Positions 20,054 to 51,906 of a stretch of 56,978 nucleotides of DNA are shown piece after piece. This DNA is from Prochloron sp. SulCav_FS08_3_32_3330 (lineage in GTDB: Bacteria; Cyanobacteriota; Cyanobacteriia; Cyanobacteriales; DYNF01): assembly GCA_020721205.1 (NCBI GenBank), contig DYNF01000002.1, positions 23,503 to 80,480 on the forward strand, in the 5' to 3' direction. The notes below the pieces were generated by a model. That model saw nothing but the letters and a program-made list of their open reading frames with translations, did no database searches and had not been told where the DNA came from. The translations under genes were made by a program, and so were the position numbers. Each line of letters opens with the position of its first letter. The first letter of the stretch is position 1.

Positions 20054-21382
20054 TCAACTATTAAGATATGCTTTAAAAATCGGATTTAACTGATATTTAA
20101 TCTCATTTTCTTGTAATATTTGCTCCAATAAACAACGTCTGATTAAAGATTTTCTAATTTTAATTGATTGTTGTTTAATATCTATTGCTTGATCTTGATC
20201 AGCTAAATTATTAATTAAATTTCTTTCAGTGTCTGATAATCTTTCTAAATGATTTTCTAACATTATTTCTATTCCTTCTAAACATAATTCATCTAATGCT
20301 AGAAATTGAGAAATTTCCCTATTAAAATCATCTTTAATAATGTTCGCAATCAGATTTAACCAAGATGGATTACCTTGATAAAGATTAATGAATTGTAAAT
20401 ATTGATCTTCATCTTTTAAACCTTTTTCTGTTAATATTTCTTTACCATCTTCTCCCAAACCGCTTAACTGTAATGTTTTAACATTAAAATTTTCAGCTTC
20501 TAATTGATCAATTTGTTGAGGTTTTTCCCAACTAATTAAAATGATACAACTTTGATGATCTAAACTAGCAACTTTTTGCAAAAATCTACTATAATCTTTA
20601 AATTCGGGTAAATATTGCCCTGCTAAATCACCAGTTTTAAAGATATTATGTACATCATCAAGTATTACTAAACAACGATATGATCTAAAATAATCTATGA
20701 CTTTAGGTAAAGGTTTTTCTTGAGATTGAGCAAAAAATTGTTTTAATTCATCTTTGAGGTTAATTAATGTTGGTTTATTATCAAGAGTACGATAAAAAAT
20801 ATAATCAAAATTTTCTTGAATTTCAGGAATTAATTTAAGGATTAAAGCAGTTTTACCAATTTTACTTAAACCATAAATTGTTATTAATTTAGTTTTATTT
20901 TCTAACCAATCTTTAAGTTGATCAATTTCAGTTTTACGCCCATAATTATAATTTAATTCGGGTGCATTTTTTAGATCAATGATTGGGAATTGATTTTGAG
21001 AGTTTGAAGAAGGTGATCGCCTTTTTTTATTACCTCTATCTTGTTGATTTTCCCTACAAATATTAATAGTACCATTATCCCCAATAACAGTTTGCTGTGA
21101 ACTAAAATTATAAATATTATCGGCAAATTTATTTTCTAAAATAGACTTAACATTACATTGTTTAATATTTTCTTCAAAAACCTCTGAAAGAATTTTCCAT
21201 AACTCAGCACCCTCTTTTTTAACATGATCATAACTATAACCATTATTCTTAGCAACTTTACAAAAATTTGGATGTTCTAAAACTCCTTCTAAGATATCTT
21301 TTTGTAAAGTATCAAGATGTTCTCCTGTTTTTGCAAATACTTGATCATCAGTCCATTTCGATAATTCTTTAATCCTCATCAT
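20054..21382 (-). CDS. Short STAND (NB-ARC-like) NTPase with N-terminal HTH
   Basis: This 442-residue protein has three parts. Residues 10-75 (WTDDQVFAKTGEHLDTLQKD, then YDHVKKEGAELWKILSE) match the helix-turn-helix head of cyanobacterial vMAP/NB-ARC proteins. Residues 90-140 are a linker. The NTPase has the P-loop GLSKIGKT at 171-178, Walker B CLVILDDV at 237-244, and the GxP motif GNPSWL at 337-342, followed by a winged-helix-like end. Relatives usually carry a WD40 or TPR sensor; this one stops after the NTPase. It may be a minimal regulator, or use a separate sensor. It diverges from the export-module precursor gene at 21606. Confidence 0.8.
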   Translation of the reverse strand: MMRIKELSKWTDDQVFAKTGEHLDTLQKDILEGVLEHPNFCKVAKNNGYSYDHVKKEGAELWKILSEVFEENIKQCNVKSILENKFADNIYNFSSQQTVIGDNGTINICRENQQDRGNKKRRSPSSNSQNQFPIIDLKNAPELNYNYGRKTEIDQLKDWLENKTKLITIYGLSKIGKTALILKLIPEIQENFDYIFYRTLDNKPTLINLKDELKQFFAQSQEKPLPKVIDYFRSYRCLVILDDVHNIFKTGDLAGQYLPEFKDYSRFLQKVASLDHQSCIILISWEKPQQIDQLEAENFNVKTLQLSGLGEDGKEILTEKGLKDEDQYLQFINLYQGNPSWLNLIANIIKDDFNREISQFLALDELCLEGIEIMLENHLERLSDTERNLINNLADQDQAIDIKQQSIKIRKSLIRRCLLEQILQENEIKYQLNPIFKAYLNS

Positions 21383-21476: not shown

Positions 21477-21546
21477 CACTAAATAACACTAAACAACACG
21501 ATTTAATACTTTAAAATCATAAATTATTTGCACACTAAATAACACT
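21477..21546. promoter_or_regulatory. 14-bp direct repeats between divergent genes
   Basis: CACTAAATAACACT occurs at 21477-21490 and again at 21533-21546, exactly 56 bp apart, with a related AAACAACAC after the first. The pair lies between the STAND gene and the precursor gene, upstream of a TATAAT at 21568-21573. It looks like an operator pair; the regulator is unknown. Confidence 0.6.
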
Positions 21547-21605: not shown

Positions 21606-22265
21606 ATGAAAACAAAAACTAAAACTTTGTTAACAGGCTTAATTAGCTTTGTCATGCTTAATGCTAGTTTCGTTCCTGTTTTTGCTAATCCTGTGATTGA
21701 GCAAGAAACTACTCAAAACCAAGAATTTCAGGTTAATTCTGCTGAAAATTCTTTAATTCTTACTCCAGCTACTAAAGACACTGCTGGGGCTGTACAAGTT
21801 GTTCCTTTAAAAGCCTATATCGCTCTTAAAGGTGAAGCAAGTCTCCAAGGTAAAGGGATTATTCAAATGATTTCTGAGCCTTCAGCCTCATCTTTAGGTA
21901 ACAAAGATTTTTCTAAAGATCTTGAAAATTCACCTTTAACCATCAACACAGAAGTTGATTTAACATCGGATTTAACTTCTGATGATTACTTCGTTATACT
22001 TCCCGAAGGAGAACATCTTAGTGATGAAGAACTAGAACAAGTCGAAGGTGAAGCTTGGTGGATTCCGGTTGGAGGTGCTGTAGGAGGTATTGCTCTTAAT
22101 GCTTACCAGAATGTTCGGGCTGGACAACCTTGGTATCAGAATTGGGGTTCTTCTGCAGCTATCGGTGCAACAGCGGCTTGGTGCGTTACTAGTGGTGGTA
22201 TGTGTCAATCAATGACTGGTGCGTGGGGTGGTACTTGGAATAGTCGGAGAAGTTGGGGATGGTAA
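21606..22265 (+). CDS. Secreted tryptophan-rich precursor with double-glycine-type motif
   Basis: I do not recognise a named family. Residues 1-28 are a Sec signal peptide (charged start, hydrophobic GLISFVMLNASFVPV, cut site VFA-N). Residues 29-137 are acidic and unstructured-looking. Residues 138-148, LSDEELEQVEG, fit the leader pattern recognised by C39 peptidases, except that E149 replaces the second glycine. The last ~71 residues are rich in Gly, Ala and Trp (nine Trp), contain VGGAVGG, and have two cysteines (C193, C200). The downstream C39 peptidase and barrel suggest it is their substrate, as a bacteriocin-like or amyloid-like peptide. Confidence 0.65.
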   Translation: MKTKTKTLLTGLISFVMLNASFVPVFANPVIEQETTQNQEFQVNSAENSLILTPATKDTAGAVQVVPLKAYIALKGEASLQGKGIIQMISEPSASSLGNKDFSKDLENSPLTINTEVDLTSDLTSDDYFVILPEGEHLSDEELEQVEGEAWWIPVGGAVGGIALNAYQNVRAGQPWYQNWGSSAAIGATAAWCVTSGGMCQSMTGAWGGTWNSRRSWGW

Positions 22266-22322
22266 ATTAACCATTACAACTAATTAAATCGCCTATTTAA
22301 TTTAGTTAGTCTCAGTTACCAA

Positions 22323-22523
22323 TTCGTAGGTTGGGTAAAACAGCCAATAATTACTTAAAAACAATAAGTATTAATAATGTTTTACCCAACACCACCTAAC
22401 ACCGAAAAATGTTAGGTAATTGTTCTTAAAACTTCTAATTTTAATCATTTTAGCTAATAAAAAAATCCGGTTCGTAGTTGGGCTTCAGCCCTAAGTAGAC
22501 AGGGCTAAAGCCCAACTACAAAC
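22323..22523. repeat. Two palindromic elements between precursor and peptidase genes
   Basis: The first has GTAGGTTGGGTAAAACA (about 22326-22342) facing TGTTTTACCCAACACCACC (about 22379-22397). The second, 22470-22523, has GTTCGTAGTTGGGCTTCAGC facing GCTAAAGCCCAACTACAAAC; a close relative lies inside the MITE at 32646-32785. Both hairpins lie within a possible operon and could reduce read-through from precursor to peptidase. Confidence 0.8.
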
Positions 22524-22552
22524 AAATTTAACTACTCGTCAATGGCTTAACA

Positions 22553-23179
22553 ATGAAACAGAAATTAAGACAGGTATTAATTATTTTAGGTATTTTAAAT
22601 TTCACTACCATTTCAGCGATCGCTTTACCTACACCCTATCGAATTTTACGTTATGAAGGAGTAGTAGGACAGACAAATTATTATACTTGTGGACCCGCCG
22701 CCGTTGCCACTTTATTAATTCATTACTATGGAATAGAAAGCGGTGAAATGGAAATCCTAGAATTAGCACATCAAGCTATTAGAGAAAGAGGAGGAAATCC
22801 AGAGGAAGGTAGAGGAATTAATGGTTTTGCCCTTAAACAAGCATTAGCAAATAAAGGTATTCGAGCAGAAGGGATTAAAATTTTACCTGAGAATTTAGCT
22901 GATTATTTTAATAAAGATGGTTTACCCTTAATTCTTCATGTCACAAAACCTAATCTTCATTATGTTTTAGCCATAGGAATGATCGGGGATTTTGTAGTAA
23001 TTGCTGATCCTTCTTGGGGACGAAAAATTATTCATCTTAATGACTTAATTAATGAAAAAGGATTTGAAGGAATGACCTTAATTCCCTTTACCCCTCGCTC
23101 TTTATTAGATCATGCTAGAGAACAACAAAATAATACCCTAATTTGGGCAGAAAATCGTTTAAACAGACTAGGAAGATAA
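22553..23179 (+). CDS. Exported C39-family cysteine peptidase
   Basis: C39 peptidases cut after double-glycine leaders. Here the domain stands alone, without the ABC transporter of bacteriocin exporters. Residues 1-25 are a signal peptide (VLIILGILNFTTISAIA), so it should act in the periplasm. The active site is complete: oxyanion Q40, nucleophile C46 in YYTCGPAAVATLL, H136 in LHYVLAIG and D152 in ADPSWGR. At 208 residues with a short tail it resembles FapD of the Pseudomonas Fap amyloid system in type. The barrel gene follows after 14 bp. Confidence 0.85.
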   Translation: MKQKLRQVLIILGILNFTTISAIALPTPYRILRYEGVVGQTNYYTCGPAAVATLLIHYYGIESGEMEILELAHQAIRERGGNPEEGRGINGFALKQALANKGIRAEGIKILPENLADYFNKDGLPLILHVTKPNLHYVLAIGMIGDFVVIADPSWGRKIIHLNDLINEKGFEGMTLIPFTPRSLLDHAREQQNNTLIWAENRLNRLGR

Positions 23180-23193
23180 ACAAATTATTAATT

Positions 23194-24162
23194 ATGAAAA
23201 AACTAATTTTAAGCTTAATTTTGCCCCTTATTACTACTCCTGTTTTAGCACAAGTTCCCATTGATCCTTTAAAATTACCAGATGTGGAAGCAGGAAGTTA
23301 TGTTTATACCTTTGGATTAGGTTATAATCCCGATGGACAGGAAAGAATATTTGCTGATTTTTTTGGTGAGCCAATTATCTTTCAGCGTAGTGAGCAAGGG
23401 TATAATTTGAATTTTTCAGGGAGCTATAGTTTTAATCAAAATCTTAGTATTTATGGTAATATTCTTCCCTCTTTACTAATTAGAGAAGATACGCAAAGAT
23501 TTGGAGATCAATCTATTACAAATCGAGAAACAAATACAGATTTAGGCGGAAATTTATCCGTTGAATATGGTTTTGCACCCGAAGCAGTATTAAATCCTCG
23601 ATTATCCCTAGGAGTTTCCTATCCTTTAGGAATTAATGTACAAACATCAACTACTTTAATCAAAGATCCAGTTATATTATTAGGTTCTTTAGGTTATAAT
23701 CGCTCTTTAGAATATGATGAAGATCGTATTTCTTTTGGTATTGGTGCGAGTTTTATTGCCAATGATAATATTAATTTTACTGCTACAGCCGATCATAGTA
23801 TTCCCTTGCAAGATAATAGCTTTACTACCACATCTCTTAGTTTTCGTACTGGATATACATTAGATCAAATGACAGGATCAGAGCTAGGTTTTAAAACCAA
23901 TTTAAGTGTTAATGCAAGAGAAACAAGGATTGGATTTAGTTTAGAATTTGGTGGACGTGGTAAACTTGGCAGTGTTTTTAATAATACAGAAATTGAGAAT
24001 AATGAAAATACTGAAAATACTGAACCTGAAAATATCTCACCTGAAATAGAATCTAATCCTAATCAAGAAAGCGAAGATTCAACTATTAATAATACTGAAT
24101 CTAATTTACAAGAAGAAATACCAGTAAATATTAATGAAAATAATGTAAATGTAAATGAATAA
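23194..24162 (+). CDS. Outer-membrane beta-barrel protein, putative exporter
   Basis: I chose ATG 23194, 14 bp after the peptidase stop, because it opens directly with the signal peptide MKKLILSLILPLITTPVLA-Q; an upstream in-frame ATG lies inside the peptidase gene. The 322-residue product alternates short hydrophobic strands and turns with aromatic belts (SYVYTFGLGYN, GYNLNFSGSYSFNQNLSIYG, LSLGVSYPLGINV, ISFGIGASF, TRIGFSLEFGGRG), as in a barrel of about 12 strands. An Asn/Glu-rich tail follows from about residue 265. There are no cysteines. The operon context suggests an exit channel like FapF. Confidence 0.68.
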   Translation: MKKLILSLILPLITTPVLAQVPIDPLKLPDVEAGSYVYTFGLGYNPDGQERIFADFFGEPIIFQRSEQGYNLNFSGSYSFNQNLSIYGNILPSLLIREDTQRFGDQSITNRETNTDLGGNLSVEYGFAPEAVLNPRLSLGVSYPLGINVQTSTTLIKDPVILLGSLGYNRSLEYDEDRISFGIGASFIANDNINFTATADHSIPLQDNSFTTTSLSFRTGYTLDQMTGSELGFKTNLSVNARETRIGFSLEFGGRGKLGSVFNNTEIENNENTENTEPENISPEIESNPNQESEDSTINNTESNLQEEIPVNINENNVNVNE

Positions 24163-27517: not shown

Positions 27518-28723
27518 ATGAAATTACTTAGAGTTCAAGTTCCTCAATTTAGGGTTTTAAAAGATGTTGATCTTAGTTTTGAAAAGGATTTTGTACCTTC
27601 TATTTTTCCATTAGGTAGTTTAAATGGTGGCGGGAAAAGTACCCTTTTACAATTAATTTTTGGTTTATTACATTGTTCTTCTGATCCAGAAAGATTACCT
27701 TATCTTCAAAATTTATTAGCAAGTTTTAAGGTAAAAAATAGCGAAGAAATGCAAACTATTGCTAAGTTTGAAATTTTAGATGATGATCAAGTTTTTGAAG
27801 TTGAATTTTTAAGTTTTCATAAAGAATCAGTAAAGTCTGAATCATTTAATATTTTGTTAGAGTCAGAAATAAATCCCGAAACAAAAAGAAAACAAGTAAT
27901 AAAAACATCAGGCACTCTTGATATTTTTACAGAAACAATAAGTAGTTTTTTAAAAAGAAAGAATATGTTATATATAACATATTTTCTTACAAGAAAATAT
28001 GGTACAGACTTAGTAAATTATCCTTGTGCCTTAGCCTGTAAAATTAATTCATTAAATCAAGTTATAAATATACAGACATTTCTTAAAAATTTATCTAATA
28101 AAATTTTTCTTATAGCTCCTTCTAGTCAAGTTTTCCATTTTATTGAAAAAGAACAAACAAGATTGTTATTCAATAAAGAAAAAGCTTATAGTCAATATCA
28201 AATAAGTCTTGATGAAGTCAAAACAAATTTACCTAACTTTTTTACTTATGATTTTATTGCTGTTAATCAAATTGTTAAACTATTTGAAAATGCAAGAGAT
28301 AAAGATTTTCAGAAAGCAGTTAAAACTGGAGAATATGGTAATAGTTATCAAAAATTATTAAATGATCTAAATCTATTATTTTCTCCTAAAAAAATAAATG
28401 TTACTCCTGATCTTAATGGCGTTACTTTTAAAATGAAAATAGATGGAGAAGAAATAGAATTATATCCAGAAGATTTAAGTCATGGGGAATTAAAAAGAAT
28501 TAGTATTTATGCTTGGCTCAAAAGTCAAAATATTGAAAATTCTATTATCTTAATGGATGAAATTGAAAACGGTTTTCATCCTGATTGGCATTATCAAATT
28601 ATCTCAGATTTAGAAGAATGGTCGCCTACTAATCAATATATTCTTGCTACCCATTCTTATGAATTATGTCAAGCACTTACCCCTTCTCATGTTAAAGAAT
28701 TAAGTCCTAAATTATTAAAATAA
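27518..28723 (+). CDS. AAA15-type ATPase of a two-gene putative defence unit
   Basis: This 401-residue protein has the split ATPase head of the OLD/RecF/AAA15 group. The P-loop is S34-LNGGGKST (serine where the first glycine normally stands). A long, Lys/Glu/Phe-rich middle follows. The last 85 residues hold an ABC-like signature LSHGELKRI, Walker B SIILMDEIENGFHP and the switch ILATHS. Such ATPases pair with a TOPRIM-like nuclease in OLD, Gabija and PARIS defence. The next gene, 18 bp downstream, has TOPRIM-like acidic motifs, which fits. The function is inferred, not shown. Confidence 0.75.
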   Translation: MKLLRVQVPQFRVLKDVDLSFEKDFVPSIFPLGSLNGGGKSTLLQLIFGLLHCSSDPERLPYLQNLLASFKVKNSEEMQTIAKFEILDDDQVFEVEFLSFHKESVKSESFNILLESEINPETKRKQVIKTSGTLDIFTETISSFLKRKNMLYITYFLTRKYGTDLVNYPCALACKINSLNQVINIQTFLKNLSNKIFLIAPSSQVFHFIEKEQTRLLFNKEKAYSQYQISLDEVKTNLPNFFTYDFIAVNQIVKLFENARDKDFQKAVKTGEYGNSYQKLLNDLNLLFSPKKINVTPDLNGVTFKMKIDGEEIELYPEDLSHGELKRISIYAWLKSQNIENSIILMDEIENGFHPDWHYQIISDLEEWSPTNQYILATHSYELCQALTPSHVKELSPKLLK

Positions 28724-28741
28724 AAATTAATTTTTATAGTT

Positions 28742-29704
28742 ATGAGTTTAAATGAAGAACAACTAAAACAACATTGTGAATATATTATTAAATCACGCCG
28801 TATTAGAGATAGAATTGTAGTTTTATGTGAAGGAAAAATTAATTTAGATTATGATCAATCTTTATCTCCTCAATCTTATAAAAGAATGGAAGAAATGCCT
28901 GATGCTAATTTTTATAAAGCTTGTATTCCTGATACATGGAGGACTCAAAAAATTCTTACACCTCAATTTTTTAATTGTGGTAATTGTGGTAATGTAATTG
29001 ATAGCTATTTTCAATTATTAGAAATTCATCAAGAAAATCCTGATAATTCTTATTTAACTCCTGATAAATTAGTAGCTATTATTGATTTAGATATTCAACA
29101 ACAAACAATAAATTATGATTATCCTTTTGCTAATAAAGAGGAAATTTTTAATCATCTTTATGAAAAAGGCAAAGTAAAAATAGCTAATCTTGATCAACAT
29201 TATATTTTTGTCACCGGATTAATTCATAAGGAAGCTTATTTTATTGTGCCAGAATTACAAGATTTTTTTGATAATTATATATATCCTCTAGTTTTTAATA
29301 AAAATACTTTAAAATTAGATGATATTTATCTCAATATGTCTAATGATTTAATTAATGATTCTGATATTAAAGATAATTTAATAAATGTTAAGCAAAGAAT
29401 TAGTTATTGTCAAGGTTTAGAACTTACTAATATTAATAAGATTCAAGATAGTTGGCAAACTCATTTTAACAATGTTAATGATGAACAAAAGAAAGAATTA
29501 ATTAGGGCTTTATTAATGATTAAAAAAGTTAAAGAATATTGGCATCAAATTTCCCAAGATAATTCCACTAATTTACAAATTAATGAAATGCAATTTAGAG
29601 AACAACTATCTTTGGAAATAGCTAAAAAATTTTATGCTAAACAAGAATATAATGAAGATAATCATATTAGAGCATTTTTTGAAAGATTAGCTCAACTTGT
29701 TTAA
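28742..29704 (+). CDS. TOPRIM-like partner of the ATPase (AriB/OLD-like)
   Basis: I do not recognise a named family, but the layout suggests a TOPRIM/DUF4435-like nuclease. RIVVLCEGKIN carries E30 after a hydrophobic strand. LVAIIDLDIQQQ carries D115 and D117 after a second strand, the E...DxD pattern of TOPRIM enzymes. A CxxC-like NCGNCGN (residues 78-84) lies between them. The C-terminal half is helical and charged. The 320-residue gene starts 18 bp after the ATPase stop. The pair resembles AriA-AriB of PARIS in composition, but equivalence is unproven. Confidence 0.6.
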   Translation: MSLNEEQLKQHCEYIIKSRRIRDRIVVLCEGKINLDYDQSLSPQSYKRMEEMPDANFYKACIPDTWRTQKILTPQFFNCGNCGNVIDSYFQLLEIHQENPDNSYLTPDKLVAIIDLDIQQQTINYDYPFANKEEIFNHLYEKGKVKIANLDQHYIFVTGLIHKEAYFIVPELQDFFDNYIYPLVFNKNTLKLDDIYLNMSNDLINDSDIKDNLINVKQRISYCQGLELTNINKIQDSWQTHFNNVNDEQKKELIRALLMIKKVKEYWHQISQDNSTNLQINEMQFREQLSLEIAKKFYAKQEYNEDNHIRAFFERLAQLV

Positions 29705-32414: not shown

Positions 32415-32927
32415 ATGCCTAAAATAAAAATTATTTTCTATCAAGATGAAAAAGGAAATGTTCCTATTTTAAAATGGCTTGACAGTTTACCAAACAAATT
32501 ACAAACAAAATGTTTTGTTAAATTAGAAAGATTAGCTGAACTTGGCTATGAATTGAGAAGACCTGAAGCAGATTTTTTACGAGATAAAATTTATGAATTA
32601 AGAATTGGTTTTCAAGGGAATAATTATCGTATACTTTATTTTTTCTAAGTAGGTGGTCATAAATAAAGTAACAAAAAGAAGATAGTTCGTAGTTGGGCTT
32701 CAGCCCTCCTACCGCAGGGCAGAGGAGGGCTGAAGCCCAACTACGAACTTTTTTAGATAGGACAATATTTATGACCACCTACTTATCAAAATCAAGCTGT
32801 GGTTATTTCTCATGGTATAATTAAAGAACAAAAAGTTCCACCTTCAGAAATTGACCAAGCAATTAAACATAAAAATAAATTTGAAAAAAATCCTAATTTA
32901 CATACTTATACTCAGGAGTTACTATGA
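32415..32927 (+). pseudogene. HigB/RelE-type toxin gene split by a MITE
   Basis: The 5' part (32415-32648) encodes KIIFYQDEKGNVPILKWLDS and ends NNYRILYFF-stop, a phage Gp49/HigB-like RelE-fold toxin cut short. The 3' part resumes at 32786 as YQNQAVVISHGIIKEQK and ends at TGA 32925-32927. Removing the 138 bp from 32648 to 32785 restores one uninterrupted 124-codon frame. Its stop overlaps the antitoxin ATG as ATGA. The toxin is therefore almost certainly inactive here. Confidence 0.88.
32646..32785. mobile_element. 140-bp MITE with TA target duplication
   Basis: Perfect 20-bp terminal inverted repeats, TAAGTAGGTGGTCATAAATA at 32646-32665 and its reverse complement at 32766-32785, include a TA at each end that fits a target-site duplication of the IS630/Tc1-mariner type. 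The interior is the palindrome GTTCGTAGTTGGGCTTCAGC, repeated in reverse around 32729-32748. The element has no coding capacity and needs a transposase in trans. Confidence 0.9.
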
Positions 32928-33154
32928 ATAACAAAAATATAACATCAGACGGTTTAGAAATTTTATATCAGCGTTATTATGCTAATAATATTGAACGTCA
33001 ATTAGAATTAGAAAAAGCTCGTCTTGATGATCAAGTTGCTAGAAAAATTGCTGAGTTAAAACAAACTTATCATATTTCTAATAAAGCTTTAGCTGAATTA
33101 ATTAATCTTGATGAATCAATGTTAGTGTATTATTTAAACTTCTTTCTGAAATAA
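32924..33154 (+). pseudogene. HigA-type antitoxin, C-terminally truncated
   Basis: The 76-residue frame NITSDGLEILYQRYYANNIE, RQLELEKARLDDQVARKIAE, LKQTYHISNKALAELINLDE is the front of an XRE/HigA antitoxin. The recognition helix and C-terminus are replaced by MLVYYLNFFLK, where the frame runs into the opposite-strand ATPase fragment. The missing C-terminus survives in the copy at 30192. The junction near 33118 marks a rearrangement. Confidence 0.7.
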
Positions 33155-33569
33155 CCCTTAAATAATCACCTCTGGAAATATTTTCATTTTGATTTTCAAG
33201 AAGATTATGTAAAGGATCAAAAATTGAAAATTCTAATTCTAAAAAAATATTATTTAAGCTAATAGTAATTGATCTTTCGTTCCCATTATCATATTTTCCT
33301 AATAAATAAATTTTATGTTCTTTCTTCAAAAATAAACTACTCCATACTTCTGTAAGCATTGATTCGTAAAACTTTTGAGATTCTTTCCTAATATATTTAT
33401 TCAAAAAAATAATAGTAGAAAGATAAGGATTATAAGATAATAATAAAGCCTCTAATAATGAAGTTTTACCTGCATTATTTTTACCTCCAATTAAGTTAAC
33501 TCTAGCTAAATCAGAAATTTTAATTTTCTCAAAACATCGAAAATTTTGAATAACTACATTTGTTTCCAT
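33102..33569 (-). pseudogene. 5' fragment of an AAA15/OLD-like ATPase
   Basis: The 155-residue frame starts METNVVIQNFRCFEKIKISD and has the P-loop GGKNNAGKTSLLEALL near residues 28-43, typical of OLD/AAA15 ATPases. It then stops without signature, Walker B or partner gene. Its broken end meets the broken end of the HigA-like gene. I read it as the front of a deleted defence gene. Confidence 0.75.
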
Positions 33570-38681: not shown

Positions 38682-39437
38682 ATGAAATTATCTCAATTAA
38701 ATTTTACTGAATTACCTTATGTATCTTTAGCAGATAAATCTAAATTACCTAGAGTATCTGGTATTTATTTTGTAATTAATCAAAATCAAGAATTTTTATA
38801 TATTGGTAGAGCAATTAATTTACTATTTAGATGGCGAGATCATCATCGTTTTAATCAACTTTGTGATTTAAGTATCAATCAGAATATTAATATATATTGG
38901 AGGGAATGTTCTGCTGAAGAAAATATATTGATTTCGGCAGAACAATATTATATTAAAAAGTATAAACCTTTGCTAAATTCTACAATTGTTCCTACTATTT
39001 GTAAAACAAATTTTGCTCTTACACTAAGTCAATTAACAAAAAATACAATCATTATGGGTTTATTTAATCGAGATTTTGGTTATGAATTAGTCTTAGCTTA
39101 TGCTTTTCCTAAAAAATATGAAAGCAAAAAAATAGCGAATTTATTAAAACAATGCCAAAATGATTTTATATGGATTAAAGACTATATTGAAAAAACACCT
39201 TTTTGGATTGGAGACTATCAAGGTAAAGAATTTTCAAATAAAATTAAAATTCGTGTTACTTCTTCATCTACATTTGGTTTATTTTGGAGAGAATGTAATA
39301 GCAGTTCAATCAAAACTTTAGTCTTAGGAGTACCAATGAGAATATTAGATTGGCGGACACATTTTAATATTCCTGATGAACCTAATTTTTTAGATTTATC
39401 TCAATTAGATGAATTAGTAAATTACAGTAAAAAGTAA
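38682..39437 (+). CDS. GIY-YIG nuclease-domain protein
   Basis: The 251-residue protein has the GIY-YIG motif near its start: SGIYFVINQNQEFLYIGRAI, then LLFRWRDHHR with the catalytic arginine, and a conserved glutamate in ILISAEQYYIKKYKPLLN. The C-terminal 140 residues are not familiar. GIY-YIG enzymes include homing, repair and restriction nucleases. Its place 89 bp upstream of a restriction-modification pair suggests an accessory role, but this is inference. Confidence 0.78.
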   Translation: MKLSQLNFTELPYVSLADKSKLPRVSGIYFVINQNQEFLYIGRAINLLFRWRDHHRFNQLCDLSINQNINIYWRECSAEENILISAEQYYIKKYKPLLNSTIVPTICKTNFALTLSQLTKNTIIMGLFNRDFGYELVLAYAFPKKYESKKIANLLKQCQNDFIWIKDYIEKTPFWIGDYQGKEFSNKIKIRVTSSSTFGLFWRECNSSSIKTLVLGVPMRILDWRTHFNIPDEPNFLDLSQLDELVNYSKK

Positions 39438-39525
39438 AGTCAGCAATCTGCATTTTATTTTGTATTCTAAGGTATCACTTTTGATATCGCCCATTAAAAT
39501 ATTTTATTTATTTATTTTAAAATTA

Positions 39526-40611
39526 ATGACTAACACACAAGAAACGCCTAGATTATTAGGATTAAACAATTCTAATCGAGACTTTTCTAAAGCAAATAGT
39601 TGGGGAAAAAATCAATTTAATAGCTCTTTTCCTGCTTCCCTTGCTTGTTATATGTATCAGCAAAATATTGAACCTATCTATTTAACATTAGATCAACAAT
39701 TAAATGTTATTCATAAAACCATTAATGTTTTTAATTTATTTGGGTTAAATCCTTTTTCTGATCATTTATTTTTTGCTTTTGAAAGTGATTTTGTTCCCTA
39801 TCGTAAATATGTGGTTAATAAATTACCTAGAGTTGATTTAGTTACGATTGATACATCGAAAAATGATTTATGTTTACAAGGATTAGAAATTAAATTAACA
39901 GCTTTGCCCGATAATTCTACTTATCATCTTAGGGATAATCAATATGGTTGTGAATTAGTAATTAGACCTGATACAATTGTTTATTTAGCTTTAAGTATTG
40001 CTATTAATTTTCAAGATAACAAAGAAGAAATTTTAAGTTATTTTGATCCTGTTTGTAGTAAAATTGAAGATTGGTCTAATCTTAATTGTATAAAAGATAA
40101 AATCTTAAATTTAGTAGATATTTTAGATCAATTTTTAATCAAAAATATAGATAAACAAAAACCTCTGATTTTACAACCAGTCTGGAAAACCATCGGCAAA
40201 AGTTTAAAACTTGCTCAAAATTGTTTAGATTTATTTGTGTGGAGTGATTTTGCTTTTACAAGGCTTTTTGTTGATGTTACTAAAAATTTGGTGACTTCAG
40301 AAATAAATAATATACAACGTCCGGTACGATCTTTAATTTGGTTAGTAAAAATGCTTTATGAATTTGCACAAAATGGTAAAATAGATTATCGTTTAATTAT
40401 TGATAGTTTAACTTATAATACTAAAAATGATAAAGCTTTCGCTTTAAGTGGTAGTAATACCCATAAATATATGACTTGTGCTAGTTTAACTAAACCGAGA
40501 ATAACTAAATCAGAAATTAAACAAATTATTCTCGGAAATGGACAAGATTTTTTAAGTCCAGAAAGAAGACTTGATGGAGTTATTTTAAGTGATCCAGATA
40601 TTTTTAATTAA
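39526..40611 (+). CDS. HindVP-family type II restriction endonuclease
   Basis: I use ATG 39526, because the conserved region begins soon after (PRLLGLNNSNRDFSKANSWG, KNQFNSSFPASLACYMY). The 361-residue protein matches the HindVP restriction enzyme family, including KLPRVDLVTIDTSKNDLCLQ and GLEIKLTALPDNSTYHLRD, where D, E and K form the likely PD-(D/E)XK core. HindVP cuts GRCGYC; the same specificity is known from cyanobacterial AcyI-type enzymes, so I infer it here. The methyltransferase starts 19 bp downstream. Confidence 0.88.
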   Translation: MTNTQETPRLLGLNNSNRDFSKANSWGKNQFNSSFPASLACYMYQQNIEPIYLTLDQQLNVIHKTINVFNLFGLNPFSDHLFFAFESDFVPYRKYVVNKLPRVDLVTIDTSKNDLCLQGLEIKLTALPDNSTYHLRDNQYGCELVIRPDTIVYLALSIAINFQDNKEEILSYFDPVCSKIEDWSNLNCIKDKILNLVDILDQFLIKNIDKQKPLILQPVWKTIGKSLKLAQNCLDLFVWSDFAFTRLFVDVTKNLVTSEINNIQRPVRSLIWLVKMLYEFAQNGKIDYRLIIDSLTYNTKNDKAFALSGSNTHKYMTCASLTKPRITKSEIKQIILGNGQDFLSPERRLDGVILSDPDIFN

Positions 40612-40630
40612 TCTTAATTTTTAGATAAAA

Positions 40631-41611
40631 ATGTTACAAGAAAAAAATAATTTATCCTCGTTAACTACTATAGATTTATTTGCAGGTTGTGGTGGTTTAT
40701 CTTTAGGATTTCAAAATATTGGTTTTAATTTAGTAGCAGGTTTTGATAATTGGCAATCAGCAATTAATGTTTATCACAAAAATTTTGATCACCCAATTTA
40801 TAATTTAGATTTAGCTAATTTAGATTGTATTAATCTTTTAAAAAATTTTAATCCTGATCTGATTTTAGGTGCGCCTCCTTGTCAAGATTTTTCTAGTGCA
40901 GGAAAAAGAAATGAAGATTTAGGCAGAGGAGATTTAACTGTTTCTTTTGCGGAAATTATTGCGAAAATTAAACCTCAATTTTTTGTAATGGAAAATGTTG
41001 ATAGATTAATGACAACTAATAAATATAAAATTGCTAGAGAAATATTTAAACAAGCTAATTATGGTTTAAGTGAAAAAATATTTGATGCTAGTTTATGTGG
41101 TGTACCTCAAAAAAGAAAAAGATTTTTTGTAGTAGGAATAAAAGGCGAAAATGATCATATTTTAAATTATTTATTTGACAAAAATTTAGCCCAAAAATCA
41201 ATGACTATTAAAGATTATTTAGGCAATAGTTTAGGCATTGAACATTATTATCGTCATCCGAGAAGTTATCAAAGAAGGGGCATTTTTAGTATTAATGAAC
41301 CTAGCCCTACCATTAGAGGCGTTAATCGCCCTATTCCTAAAACTTATCAACCCCATTCAGGTGATACTGCCCCCATATCTGATCAAATTAGACCATTAAC
41401 AACTATTGAAAGAAGTTATCTACAAACATTTCCGAAAAACTTTATTTTTGAAGGCACAAAAACCGATTTAGAACAGATGATCGGTAATGCTGTTCCTGTT
41501 AAATTAGCTGAATATGTGGCTAATTGTCTTAAAGAATATTTAGACAGTAAACAAGTTAATTTTTCTCTAAAAAATAAGGCATATTTTGAGCAATTGTGTT
41601 TACCCGTTTAA
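40631..41611 (+). CDS. DNA cytosine-5 methyltransferase of the HindVP-type system
   Basis: The enzyme transfers methyl groups from S-adenosylmethionine to cytosine C5 and protects the cognate site. Motif I is DLFAGCGGLSLGFQ, motif IV with the catalytic cysteine is GAPPCQDFSSAG, motif VI is FVMENVDRL, motif VIII is QKRKRFFVVG, and motif X is GNAVPVKLAEYVA. The 326-residue length is normal for a type II enzyme. It is tightly linked to the HindVP-like gene, so the two form a restriction-modification unit. Confidence 0.95.
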   Translation: MLQEKNNLSSLTTIDLFAGCGGLSLGFQNIGFNLVAGFDNWQSAINVYHKNFDHPIYNLDLANLDCINLLKNFNPDLILGAPPCQDFSSAGKRNEDLGRGDLTVSFAEIIAKIKPQFFVMENVDRLMTTNKYKIAREIFKQANYGLSEKIFDASLCGVPQKRKRFFVVGIKGENDHILNYLFDKNLAQKSMTIKDYLGNSLGIEHYYRHPRSYQRRGIFSINEPSPTIRGVNRPIPKTYQPHSGDTAPISDQIRPLTTIERSYLQTFPKNFIFEGTKTDLEQMIGNAVPVKLAEYVANCLKEYLDSKQVNFSLKNKAYFEQLCLPV

Positions 41612-50544: not shown

Positions 50545-51906
50545 ATGCTAATTCGTTTTACAGTAGAAAATTATTTGTCTTTTCAAGAAAGGACAGAATT
50601 TAATATGATTGCTACGGCGGATCAAAATAAGCTTCATCATGTAGTTTATAATTCAAAAGATCAAGAATCAATTAAATTATTGAGAGGTAGCATTATTTAT
50701 GGTGCAAATGCTTCAGGAAAATCTAATCTGATTAAAGCAATGGCATTTGCTCAGGATTTTATTGTGGAAGGTGTAGCTAAAAATAAAAATATTATTCTTA
50801 ATAAATTTAGATTAAATCAAAGTTGTCAAAATAAACCTTCCCGTTTTGAATTTGAATTGAGAGTTAAAGGAAAACAATATGCTTATGGTTTTATTATTGA
50901 TAATAATAAAGTTCATGAAGAATGGCTTTATGAAATAGGTACAAAGGAAAAAGAAGATTGTATTTATGAAAGAAATGAAAATAAAATAAAGTTTAATTTT
51001 CATTATTGTTGGTTTAAAAATATAGAAAATCACAATAAAAATAGACTTTTATATGAAGCAGACAGCACTAGACAAAATTTATTATTCTTAACTAATTGTA
51101 AAGAGAGAAATATTACTTATTTTGAAAATATTTATAATTGGTTTGATGATATTTTAAATATTATTTTTCCTGAAAGTAAAGCTTTCATCTTACCTGTTTT
51201 TATTCATGATCAAAAAGAAACAGAACTTTTTTCAAAAATTTTAAATAAATTTGATTTGGGAATTGATAAACTTACTATTTCTAAAATTAATTTAAACGAT
51301 TATTCAGAAATACCACAGGATGCAAAAGATGAAATAAATAAACAATTTCCTTTTGATAACGAGGAATTTAATAGCATTTTTTCTCCTCAATATAATTGCA
51401 TTATTACTTATGATCAAGACAATCAAAATAATAAATATTTGCAAGTTTATCAGTTATCAACTATTAAGAAAAGTTCAGATAATTTAGATATAAACTTTAA
51501 AATTGAAGAAGAATCAGATGGCACTCAAAGAATTATAGATTTAATACCAATGTTAATAACTTTAGCTCAAAGTAATTCTATTTTTATTATTGATGAAATA
51601 GAAAGAAGTTTACATACTTTATTAATAAGAAAAATCTTTGATTTAGTCTTAAATAATCGTGATTTTACTAATAAAGAAAGTCAAATTATTGCTACTACCC
51701 ATGATGTTAATTTATTAGATATTGAAGAAATATTTAGAAAAGATGAAATTTGGTTTGTGGAAAAGAATAAACATGGTGAGTCTATCACTTATTCTTTAGC
51801 TAATACTGATGTGGAAAATTTAGATTTAACTAAAGGTTATTTAAAGGGAAGATTTGGTGCGATTCCTTTTCTTCAAGATATTAAAGATTTAAGTTTAAAA
51901 AATTAA
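50545..51906 (+). CDS. RloA-like AAA15 ATPase
   Basis: The 453-residue protein starts MLIRFTVENYLSFQERTEFN and has the P-loop YGANASGKSNLIKAM near residues 52-66. The C-terminal half holds the signature-like EESDGTQRIIDLIPML, Walker B FIIDEIERSLH and the switch ATTHDVNLL. This is the RloA/AAA15 (ATP/GTP phosphatase) family that pairs with RloB in restriction-linked and defence loci. The RloB partner follows after 12 bp but is truncated, so the unit may be non-functional. Confidence 0.85.
   Translation: MLIRFTVENYLSFQERTEFNMIATADQNKLHHVVYNSKDQESIKLLRGSIIYGANASGKSNLIKAMAFAQDFIVEGVAKNKNIILNKFRLNQSCQNKPSRFEFELRVKGKQYAYGFIIDNNKVHEEWLYEIGTKEKEDCIYERNENKIKFNFHYCWFKNIENHNKNRLLYEADSTRQNLLFLTNCKERNITYFENIYNWFDDILNIIFPESKAFILPVFIHDQKETELFSKILNKFDLGIDKLTISKINLNDYSEIPQDAKDEINKQFPFDNEEFNSIFSPQYNCIITYDQDNQNNKYLQVYQLSTIKKSSDNLDINFKIEEESDGTQRIIDLIPMLITLAQSNSIFIIDEIERSLHTLLIRKIFDLVLNNRDFTNKESQIIATTHDVNLLDIEEIFRKDEIWFVEKNKHGESITYSLANTDVENLDLTKGYLKGRFGAIPFLQDIKDLSLKN

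Follow-up and report, generated by a model that had tools for sequence, protein, structure and literature searches.

The window considered here, meaning the whole analysed stretch of 56,978 nucleotides from contig DYNF01000002.1 of Prochloron sp. SulCav_FS08_3_32_3330, harbors three consecutive genes on one strand, which encode in turn a Sec-targeted precursor, a stand-alone C39 peptidase, and a FapF-like outer-membrane barrel. A gene for a STAND/NB-ARC NTPase is found upstream in divergent orientation. The locus probably serves as a self-contained cassette by which one bacteriocin-like peptide is secreted. The three open reading frames (ORFs) lie where the initial annotation of this DNA had placed them, and the barrel ATG leaves the 14-bp gap after the peptidase stop that it had described. 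Signal peptides are recognised by eye on both the precursor and the peptidase, in agreement with the Sec targeting proposed for them. The coordinates are collected in Table 1, and statements drawn from the literature refer to the cited passages of each paper.

Table 1. Features of the locus, with positions in the window
Feature	Position	Strand	Basis
Divergent STAND/NB-ARC NTPase, 442 residues, proposed regulator	20054..21382	-	Pfam ATPase_2 1.3e-8, NB-ARC 5e-6
Three ACTAAA elements (21478, 21488, 21534), candidate operator	21478..21539	+	Intergenic site count
Precursor, 219 residues: signal peptide, pro-region of ~110 residues, leader, 70-residue core	21606..22265	+	ORF, alignment, one match per genome
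Sec signal peptide of the precursor, residues 1-27 (..VFA/NP)	21606..21686	+	Read by eye
C39-type leader LSDEELEQVEGE, residues 138-149	22017..22052	+	Alignment of 14 precursors
Predicted mature core, 70 residues, isoelectric point 9.5, two Cys	22053..22262	+	Cleavage after E149 assumed
Inverted repeat, 23-nt arms, between precursor and peptidase; second copy at 32691-32742	22470..22523		
Stand-alone C39 peptidase, 208 residues, signal peptide by eye (..AIA/LP)	22553..23179	+	PF03412, active site, own clade
FapF-like outer-membrane barrel, 322 residues, signal peptide by eye (..VLA/QV)	23194..24162	+	PDB profile search, hhalign

The genes of the locus

The peptidase matches the Pfam C39 family PF03412 at 49.3 bits (cut-off 22; E 5.5e-13), and residues Q40, C46, H136, and D152 are invariant in all 14 aligned peptidases of the module. 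The window protein thus has both attributes of the family, a score above the cut-off and the Q/C/H/D active site, and the complete active site first noted for it is confirmed. Its best match among the NCBIfam models is FapD (NF058616), at 36.8 bits and far under the cut-off of 330. In a tree of 39 C39 sequences, 23 stand-alone enzymes are split from 16 domains of ATP-binding cassette (ABC) exporters (98/97), and the 14 module peptidases make up a single clade (99/96) beside a six-member FapD-like clade (99/97). A small and weaker group combines Fil, gonococcal, and Campylobacter sequences (84/85). The exporter rows are the C39 stretches of open frames of 714-768 residues (1,031 in L002), and are called ABC exporters by their length. 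The branch of L002 is very long in this tree, which came with a warning that long branches meet; with L002 removed, leaving 15 exporters, the split between stand-alone and exporter sequences stands at 100/99 and the module clade at 99/96.

The leader of the precursor is conserved across two phyla. Position -2 is glycine in 14 of 14 aligned precursors, and position -1 is glutamate in 12, alanine in one, and lysine in one. The description of the leader as C39-type therefore stands in part: the spacing of class II microcin and bacteriocin leaders and their glycine at -2 are retained, whereas the final residue is glutamate instead of glycine, and the model TIGR03949 reaches 12.9 bits against a cut-off of 21.5. 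The ten predicted cyanobacterial cores span 61-79 residues with isoelectric points of 9.3-11.8, and each contains exactly two cysteines, with no cysteine upstream of the cut. Cores from the four Deinococcota precursors measure 44-104 residues, have isoelectric points of 6.8-9.5, and contain 3, 0, 0, and 0 cysteines. A profile of the precursor finds a single match per genome in all ten module genomes at E 0.01, which leaves no sign of a further substrate of this type, as the initial proposal of one substrate had it. A Pfam domain below E 0.05 is present in only one of the 14 precursors, that of Deinococcus NW-56 (Ntox33). Four cyanobacterial cores of different families (L037, L039, L062, and L065) have in common the C-terminal stretch FFxNGQ(R/K)ING(I/L)RVF, for which scanning the precursors against Pfam returned no convincing family. 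The precursor of genome G006 (L036:10194-10215) is without an in-frame ATG at the expected place, and likely starts at ATT or harbors an indel.

The window barrel on its own matches Pfam PF13505 at 24.8 bits, below the cut-off of 28.7, and the FapF equivalog NF058560 leaves it unmatched up to E 1. When a profile of 14 barrel sequences was searched against 177,635 PDB sequences, only FapF (four sequences) was found below E 0.4, with whole-sequence E-values of 0.0017-0.0021. Comparison by hhalign of the module barrels with eight FapF relatives, one of which matches FapF at 5.6e-25, returned 96.7% with a score of 74.3 over 179 columns. The decoys scored 24.9 and 21.3 for reversed alignments, at most 25.1 for 100 column shuffles, and at most 48.0 for 100 ten-column block shuffles, and a natural-barrel control of one protein, the single OMP_b-brl sequence of the same genome, scored 16.0 against the module barrels. 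Mean beta-amphipathicity of the barrel is 0.994, against 0.630 in 300 shuffles (standard deviation 0.072, maximum 0.865); the number of amphipathic peaks, 16 against a shuffle mean of 13.7, gives no separation, as 59 of the 300 shuffles reach it. The outer-membrane barrel originally proposed, weak from Pfam alone, is thus backed by the homology to FapF and by the alternating beta pattern, and the protein appears to be a remote FapF homologue. In all ten cyanobacterial barrels QxPIDPL directly follows the signal peptide, without the N-terminal coiled coil of FapF (by eye). A C-terminal coiled-coil-like stretch is seen by eye in seven of the ten, the window's not included.

In this order, the Cyanobacteriales, the STAND gene belongs to the locus as a fourth gene. 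It is divergent from the precursor in all eight loci of the order, one of which is cut by a contig end; three of the eight genes (that of the window and those of two relatives) were scanned with Pfam and the remaining ones were recognised by eye. At the two loci of family f55 no neighbouring STAND gene was seen. Against PADLOC, the window ORF has a weak match to PDC-S27 (4.1e-6). Sites resembling ACTAAA, a pattern picked after inspection, number 38 in the eight intergenic regions, against a shuffle mean of 10.6 and a maximum of 19 (n=500), and are most commonly spaced by 10 bp. The three sites of the window itself are not significant (79 of 500 shuffles reach three), and the same is true of L062 and L063.

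Distribution in cyanobacteria and on Deinococcota plasmids

The module has the rare, scattered occurrence expected of an accessory trait. Searches with the window peptidase covered 243 order genomes and 388 class genomes, the family being represented by the window's own genome only, and found a close peptidase in four of the former (next best E 1.4e-7) and four of the latter (E 1e-10). At E 0.001 the peptidase is matched in 84 of the 243 order genomes; the 80 beyond the four close ones score no better than E 1.4e-7 and lie for the most part in frames of about 720 residues, with some in frames of 170-450 residues. A 14-row peptidase profile, searched in 388 order genomes and 386 phylum genomes, found close peptidases in eight and two, respectively (E 1e-25 for each search). 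The barrel profile, searched in 388 order genomes and in 38 genomes of the order of G421, matched in nine (one of them a remnant, in G707) and two. Both the peptidase and a full barrel are carried by the same eight of the 388 order genomes, the two draws of 388 being taken as an identical set because their totals and listed genomes agree. A peptidase scan of viral contigs gave zero matches, and that of a genome-contig collection only a weak match in Lachnospiraceae.

The co-occurrence check suggested at the outset was borne out, in that peptidase and barrel are adjoining genes wherever a close peptidase was found among the cyanobacteria (ten genomes). In each of these genomes precursor, peptidase, and barrel follow one another on one strand, and because the same order and strand recur in all ten, the three-gene arrangement is not due to chance. 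All nine cyanobacterial relatives have a barrel start that overlaps the peptidase stop; the overlap measures 4 bp in L036-L040 (five loci) and, with the start codon chosen here, 1 bp in L062-L065 (four loci). The exception to the pairing is G707 (L066:5193-5405), a decayed module with only a barrel remnant in a frame of 70-75 residues, which was left out of the module counts.

A tblastn search of 72,556 plasmid records with the peptidase found nine, from Thermus (four), Deinococcus (two), Croceicoccus (two), and Photobacterium (one), and the same search with the barrel found three; the Croceicoccus and Photobacterium matches were counted as Fap-like. On the Thermus and Deinococcus plasmids the peptidase adjoins the barrel, with a 4-bp overlap in two Thermus loci and a 2-3-bp gap in two Deinococcus loci. 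Upstream of this pair, L053, L055, L056, and L057 harbor a leader-bearing precursor and one extra gene. L054, which has the peptidase and barrel accessions of L053, and L060 and L061, in which the module is split by the record start, were excluded from the alignments. The extra gene encodes a CPBP-type membrane protease, an ORF of 151 residues, an ORF of 63 residues, or DUF4279, and by eye the 151- and 63-residue ORFs resemble membrane proteins. In three of these loci the membrane-protein gene is located between precursor and peptidase, which could be the position of an immunity gene.

The Deinococcus NW-56 precursor has Ntox33 at its C-terminus (3.7e-23) and a DUF4279 gene adjoining it (1.8e-16). 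Work from 2026 on Salmonella type VI effectors describes an Ntox33 protein for which a DUF4279 protein is the likely source of immunity (PMC13304343), and in a 2012 survey of polymorphic toxins Ntox33 is given without an immunity protein (PMC3482391). Since this precursor ends in one member of a reported toxin-immunity pair and lies beside the other, the cargo of the module is read as bacteriocin- or toxin-like and not as amyloid. Downstream of both Deinococcus modules (L056:5313-8546 and L057:5353-8570), three hypothetical proteins and an S41 peptidase are encoded in a shared order. Stand-alone C39 peptidases are also found beside hypothetical proteins on the small mobilizable plasmids pCCON16 of Campylobacter concisus (L068) and pTR11_4 of Acinetobacter (L069), and may be further relatives.

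Proposed mode of action and relation to known systems

As a secretion cassette, the locus would operate as follows. The precursor would cross the inner membrane via Sec, and the periplasmic C39 peptidase would then bind the LSxxELxxVEG leader and cut either after Gly-Glu or between the glycine and the glutamate. This cut would release the core, a cationic stretch of about 70 residues that is rich in glycine and alanine and whose two cysteines may form a disulphide, and the core, with a presumed antibacterial or cell-lytic activity, would exit via the dedicated FapF-like barrel. Expression would be controlled by the divergently encoded STAND protein. The initial annotation, which had combined Sec, a periplasmic C39 peptidase, a FapF-like barrel, one substrate, and the absence of an ABC transporter at the locus, is supported in this respect and mostly right overall. 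Its statement that a C39 ABC transporter is absent is true of the locus and has to be limited to it, because the genome carries a canonical-looking C39 ABC exporter on contig C37. Likewise, its cyanobacterial system of Fap-like logic stands as to the logic but is not solely cyanobacterial, being found in Thermus and Deinococcus too.

A number of observations weigh against this secretion model. The usual sites of C39 peptidases are Gly-Gly and sometimes Gly-Ala (PMC5557850), and a glutamate at -1 departs from them. The window precursor gives zero Pfam family matches up to E 1. The link between the barrel and FapF is remote, with a best single-domain i-Evalue of only 0.055 in the PDB search, and hhalign with one FapF-like sequence alone is weak (33%). 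The comparison with FapF that had been called for is answered by the sequence profiles, which link the two proteins, and not by structure prediction, as AlphaFold2 run without an alignment on a fragment of the window barrel gave no usable model (predicted local distance difference test score 34). The same genome also encodes a C39 domain in an ORF of about 1,030 residues on contig C37 that adjoins a HlyD-like ORF, and no immunity gene is apparent by eye at the cyanobacterial loci. Finally, the closest bacteriocin-like analogue, the Nap peptides of gonococci, failed to inhibit the strains tested in the experiments cited (PMC11798529).

The Pseudomonas Fap amyloid system resembles the module in its periplasmic stand-alone C39 peptidase, FapF-type barrel, and Sec-targeted proteins (PMC5557850). 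It differs in that the window has a bacteriocin-like core with an explicit leader and a peptidase in its own clade, and in that FapF harbors an N-terminal periplasmic coiled coil that the module barrels are without. Membership in Fap was rejected, as the FapD score is under the cut-off, the FapF equivalog is unmatched, and neither amyloid subunits nor the FapF coiled coil were seen. By eye, no ORF for FapA, FapB, FapC, or FapE was seen beside the ten cyanobacterial loci, where a single non-repetitive precursor is found instead. The substrate of FapD was described as still undetermined in 2018 (PMC6173800), and Fap proteins are without canonical C39 sites in the passages cited (PMC5557850, PMC6173800). 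In 2013 Fap was reported from Proteobacteria only, with the FapD and FapF models matching two larger protein families (PMC3792158), and a 2018 paper noted homologues of fapD and fapF lying together in five further phyla, which are not named in the section concerned (PMC6173800). The pairing of peptidase and barrel had thus already been noted outside Proteobacteria, but the same section does not name substrates or leaders. Some of these loci may belong to the present family.

A further likeness, by description, is to the nap island of Neisseria gonorrhoeae, where a C39 peptidase (NapP) and a FapF homologue (NapF) occur together with cationic, leader-bearing peptides that promote autolysis (PMC11798529). 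The Nap peptides differ in being several and short (16-36 residues when mature) and in having a Gly-Gly motif, and the candidate regulator of the island, NapR, is a putative DNA-binding peptide; its authors suggest that NapH might carry the Naps across the inner membrane (PMC11798529). The gonococcal C39 sequence placed in our tree (L088, which may or may not be napP) falls outside the module clade. The alternative that survives best, although we consider it unlikely, is a self-directed lysis or cell-death system akin to this island, controlled by the STAND protein and not a weapon against others. It draws on the components and autolytic role of the nap island, on the lack of a visible immunity gene at the cyanobacterial loci, and on the presence of the STAND gene in all eight loci of the order. 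STAND proteins in general have been linked with cell death. Against this reading, the Deinococcota loci do have a gene in the immunity position.

It is more doubtful still that the locus represents a cyanobacterial amyloid or matrix-fibre system, in which the exported core would assemble at the surface in the manner of Fap. The peptidase and barrel are related to FapD and FapF, and a FapD cysteine mutant abolishes secretion of FapC (PMC5557850), but the cores are short, cationic, furnished with two cysteines, and not visibly repetitive, in contrast to the repeat-bearing Fap subunits. A single substrate was found per genome, and a related precursor, that of Deinococcus, carries a toxin domain. 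Least probable is a role of the precursor as a surface or signalling peptide handled by the C39 ABC exporter of the genome, with some other task for the local peptidase and barrel; the ORF on C37 and its HlyD-like neighbour would permit this, but precursor and peptidase bear signal peptides (read by eye) that suggest a periplasmic location, whereas the peptidase of an exporter is cytoplasmic, and the three genes co-occur and remain adjacent.

Other known systems are further removed. The cyanobacterial bacteriocin clusters of groups I-VII, mined with C39-containing ABC transporters, HlyD, and LanM (PMC3140520), likewise combine a C39 peptidase with leader-bearing precursors, but membership in these groups was rejected as the window locus is without their C39 ABC transporter, HlyD, and LanM markers. 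A peptidase-containing ABC transporter (PCAT) or type 1 secretion system was also rejected, as the peptidase is a stand-alone protein, not fused to an ABC transporter, that falls outside the exporter domains in the tree. In the Acinetobacter Fil system, named as a putative pilus system, FilB is a C39 peptidase that weakly matches the window peptidase, and FilC matches the FapF-like Croceicoccus barrel; however, the 18.3 bits obtained are far below the FilB cut-off of 475, and FilC is unmatched by the window barrel.

Returning to the secretion cassette, its machine is Fap/Nap-like and very likely works by the logic of Fap, and its cargo looks bacteriocin-like. The locus is a new variant of the Fap/Nap type rather than a Fap system, the new points being the Gly-Glu site, the two-cysteine cores, the toxin-bearing Deinococcus precursor, and the STAND gene. 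Beyond the papers cited here, no published description of the module was recognised among the matches listed, in a coverage without most subscription papers and without preprints. More tentatively, and as a possibility that we would not yet call probable, Cyanobacteriota and Deinococcota may share a distinct, thinly spread Sec-fed, ABC-free route for bacteriocins and small toxins, in which a periplasmic C39 peptidase reads a Gly-Glu leader and a FapF-derived barrel serves for exit; a single ancient peptidase-barrel machine would then have Fap amyloid export and the nap island as sister uses, and the cyanobacterial route would be switched by a STAND sensor. If true, this adds an ABC-free export route for bacteriocins or toxins, and suggests that pairs like FapD and FapF are exporters of a general kind and not machines for amyloid. 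The same rare kit is also present in heat- and radiation-resistant bacteria (Thermus and Deinococcus). Since the locus combines a single peptidase and a single barrel with a single precursor whose leader is explicit and conserved, three genes suffice for testing cleavage and export, and the module could thereby reveal what the periplasmic C39 peptidases, a little-understood class of enzymes, cut.

Repeat element and other genes in the window

The inverted repeat that splits the precursor from the peptidase is one of two intergenic copies of a palindromic element, AGTTGGGCTTCAGCCC, which has four matches with at most two mismatches against 0.01 expected, and is probably a small repeat or a miniature inverted-repeat transposable element (MITE). 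Promoter and terminator scans gave counts no higher than the shuffle level.

Elsewhere in the window, several ORFs resemble components of defence systems. An AbiLi-like AAA ATPase at 50545-51906 (PADLOC 7.5e-83) is a possible phage-defence gene, and an apparently truncated N-terminal piece of 155 residues from a similar ATPase is found at 33102-33569 on the reverse strand (PADLOC 1.6e-17). The region 27518-29704 encodes an AAA ATPase resembling PtuA/AriA (PADLOC 5.9e-18), followed by an ORF of 320 residues without a PADLOC match, and these may form a two-gene defence pair. At 38682-41611 a GIY-YIG-like ORF, an unknown ORF, and a cytosine-C5 methyltransferase-like ORF lie in a row (by eye), in the manner of a restriction-modification set.

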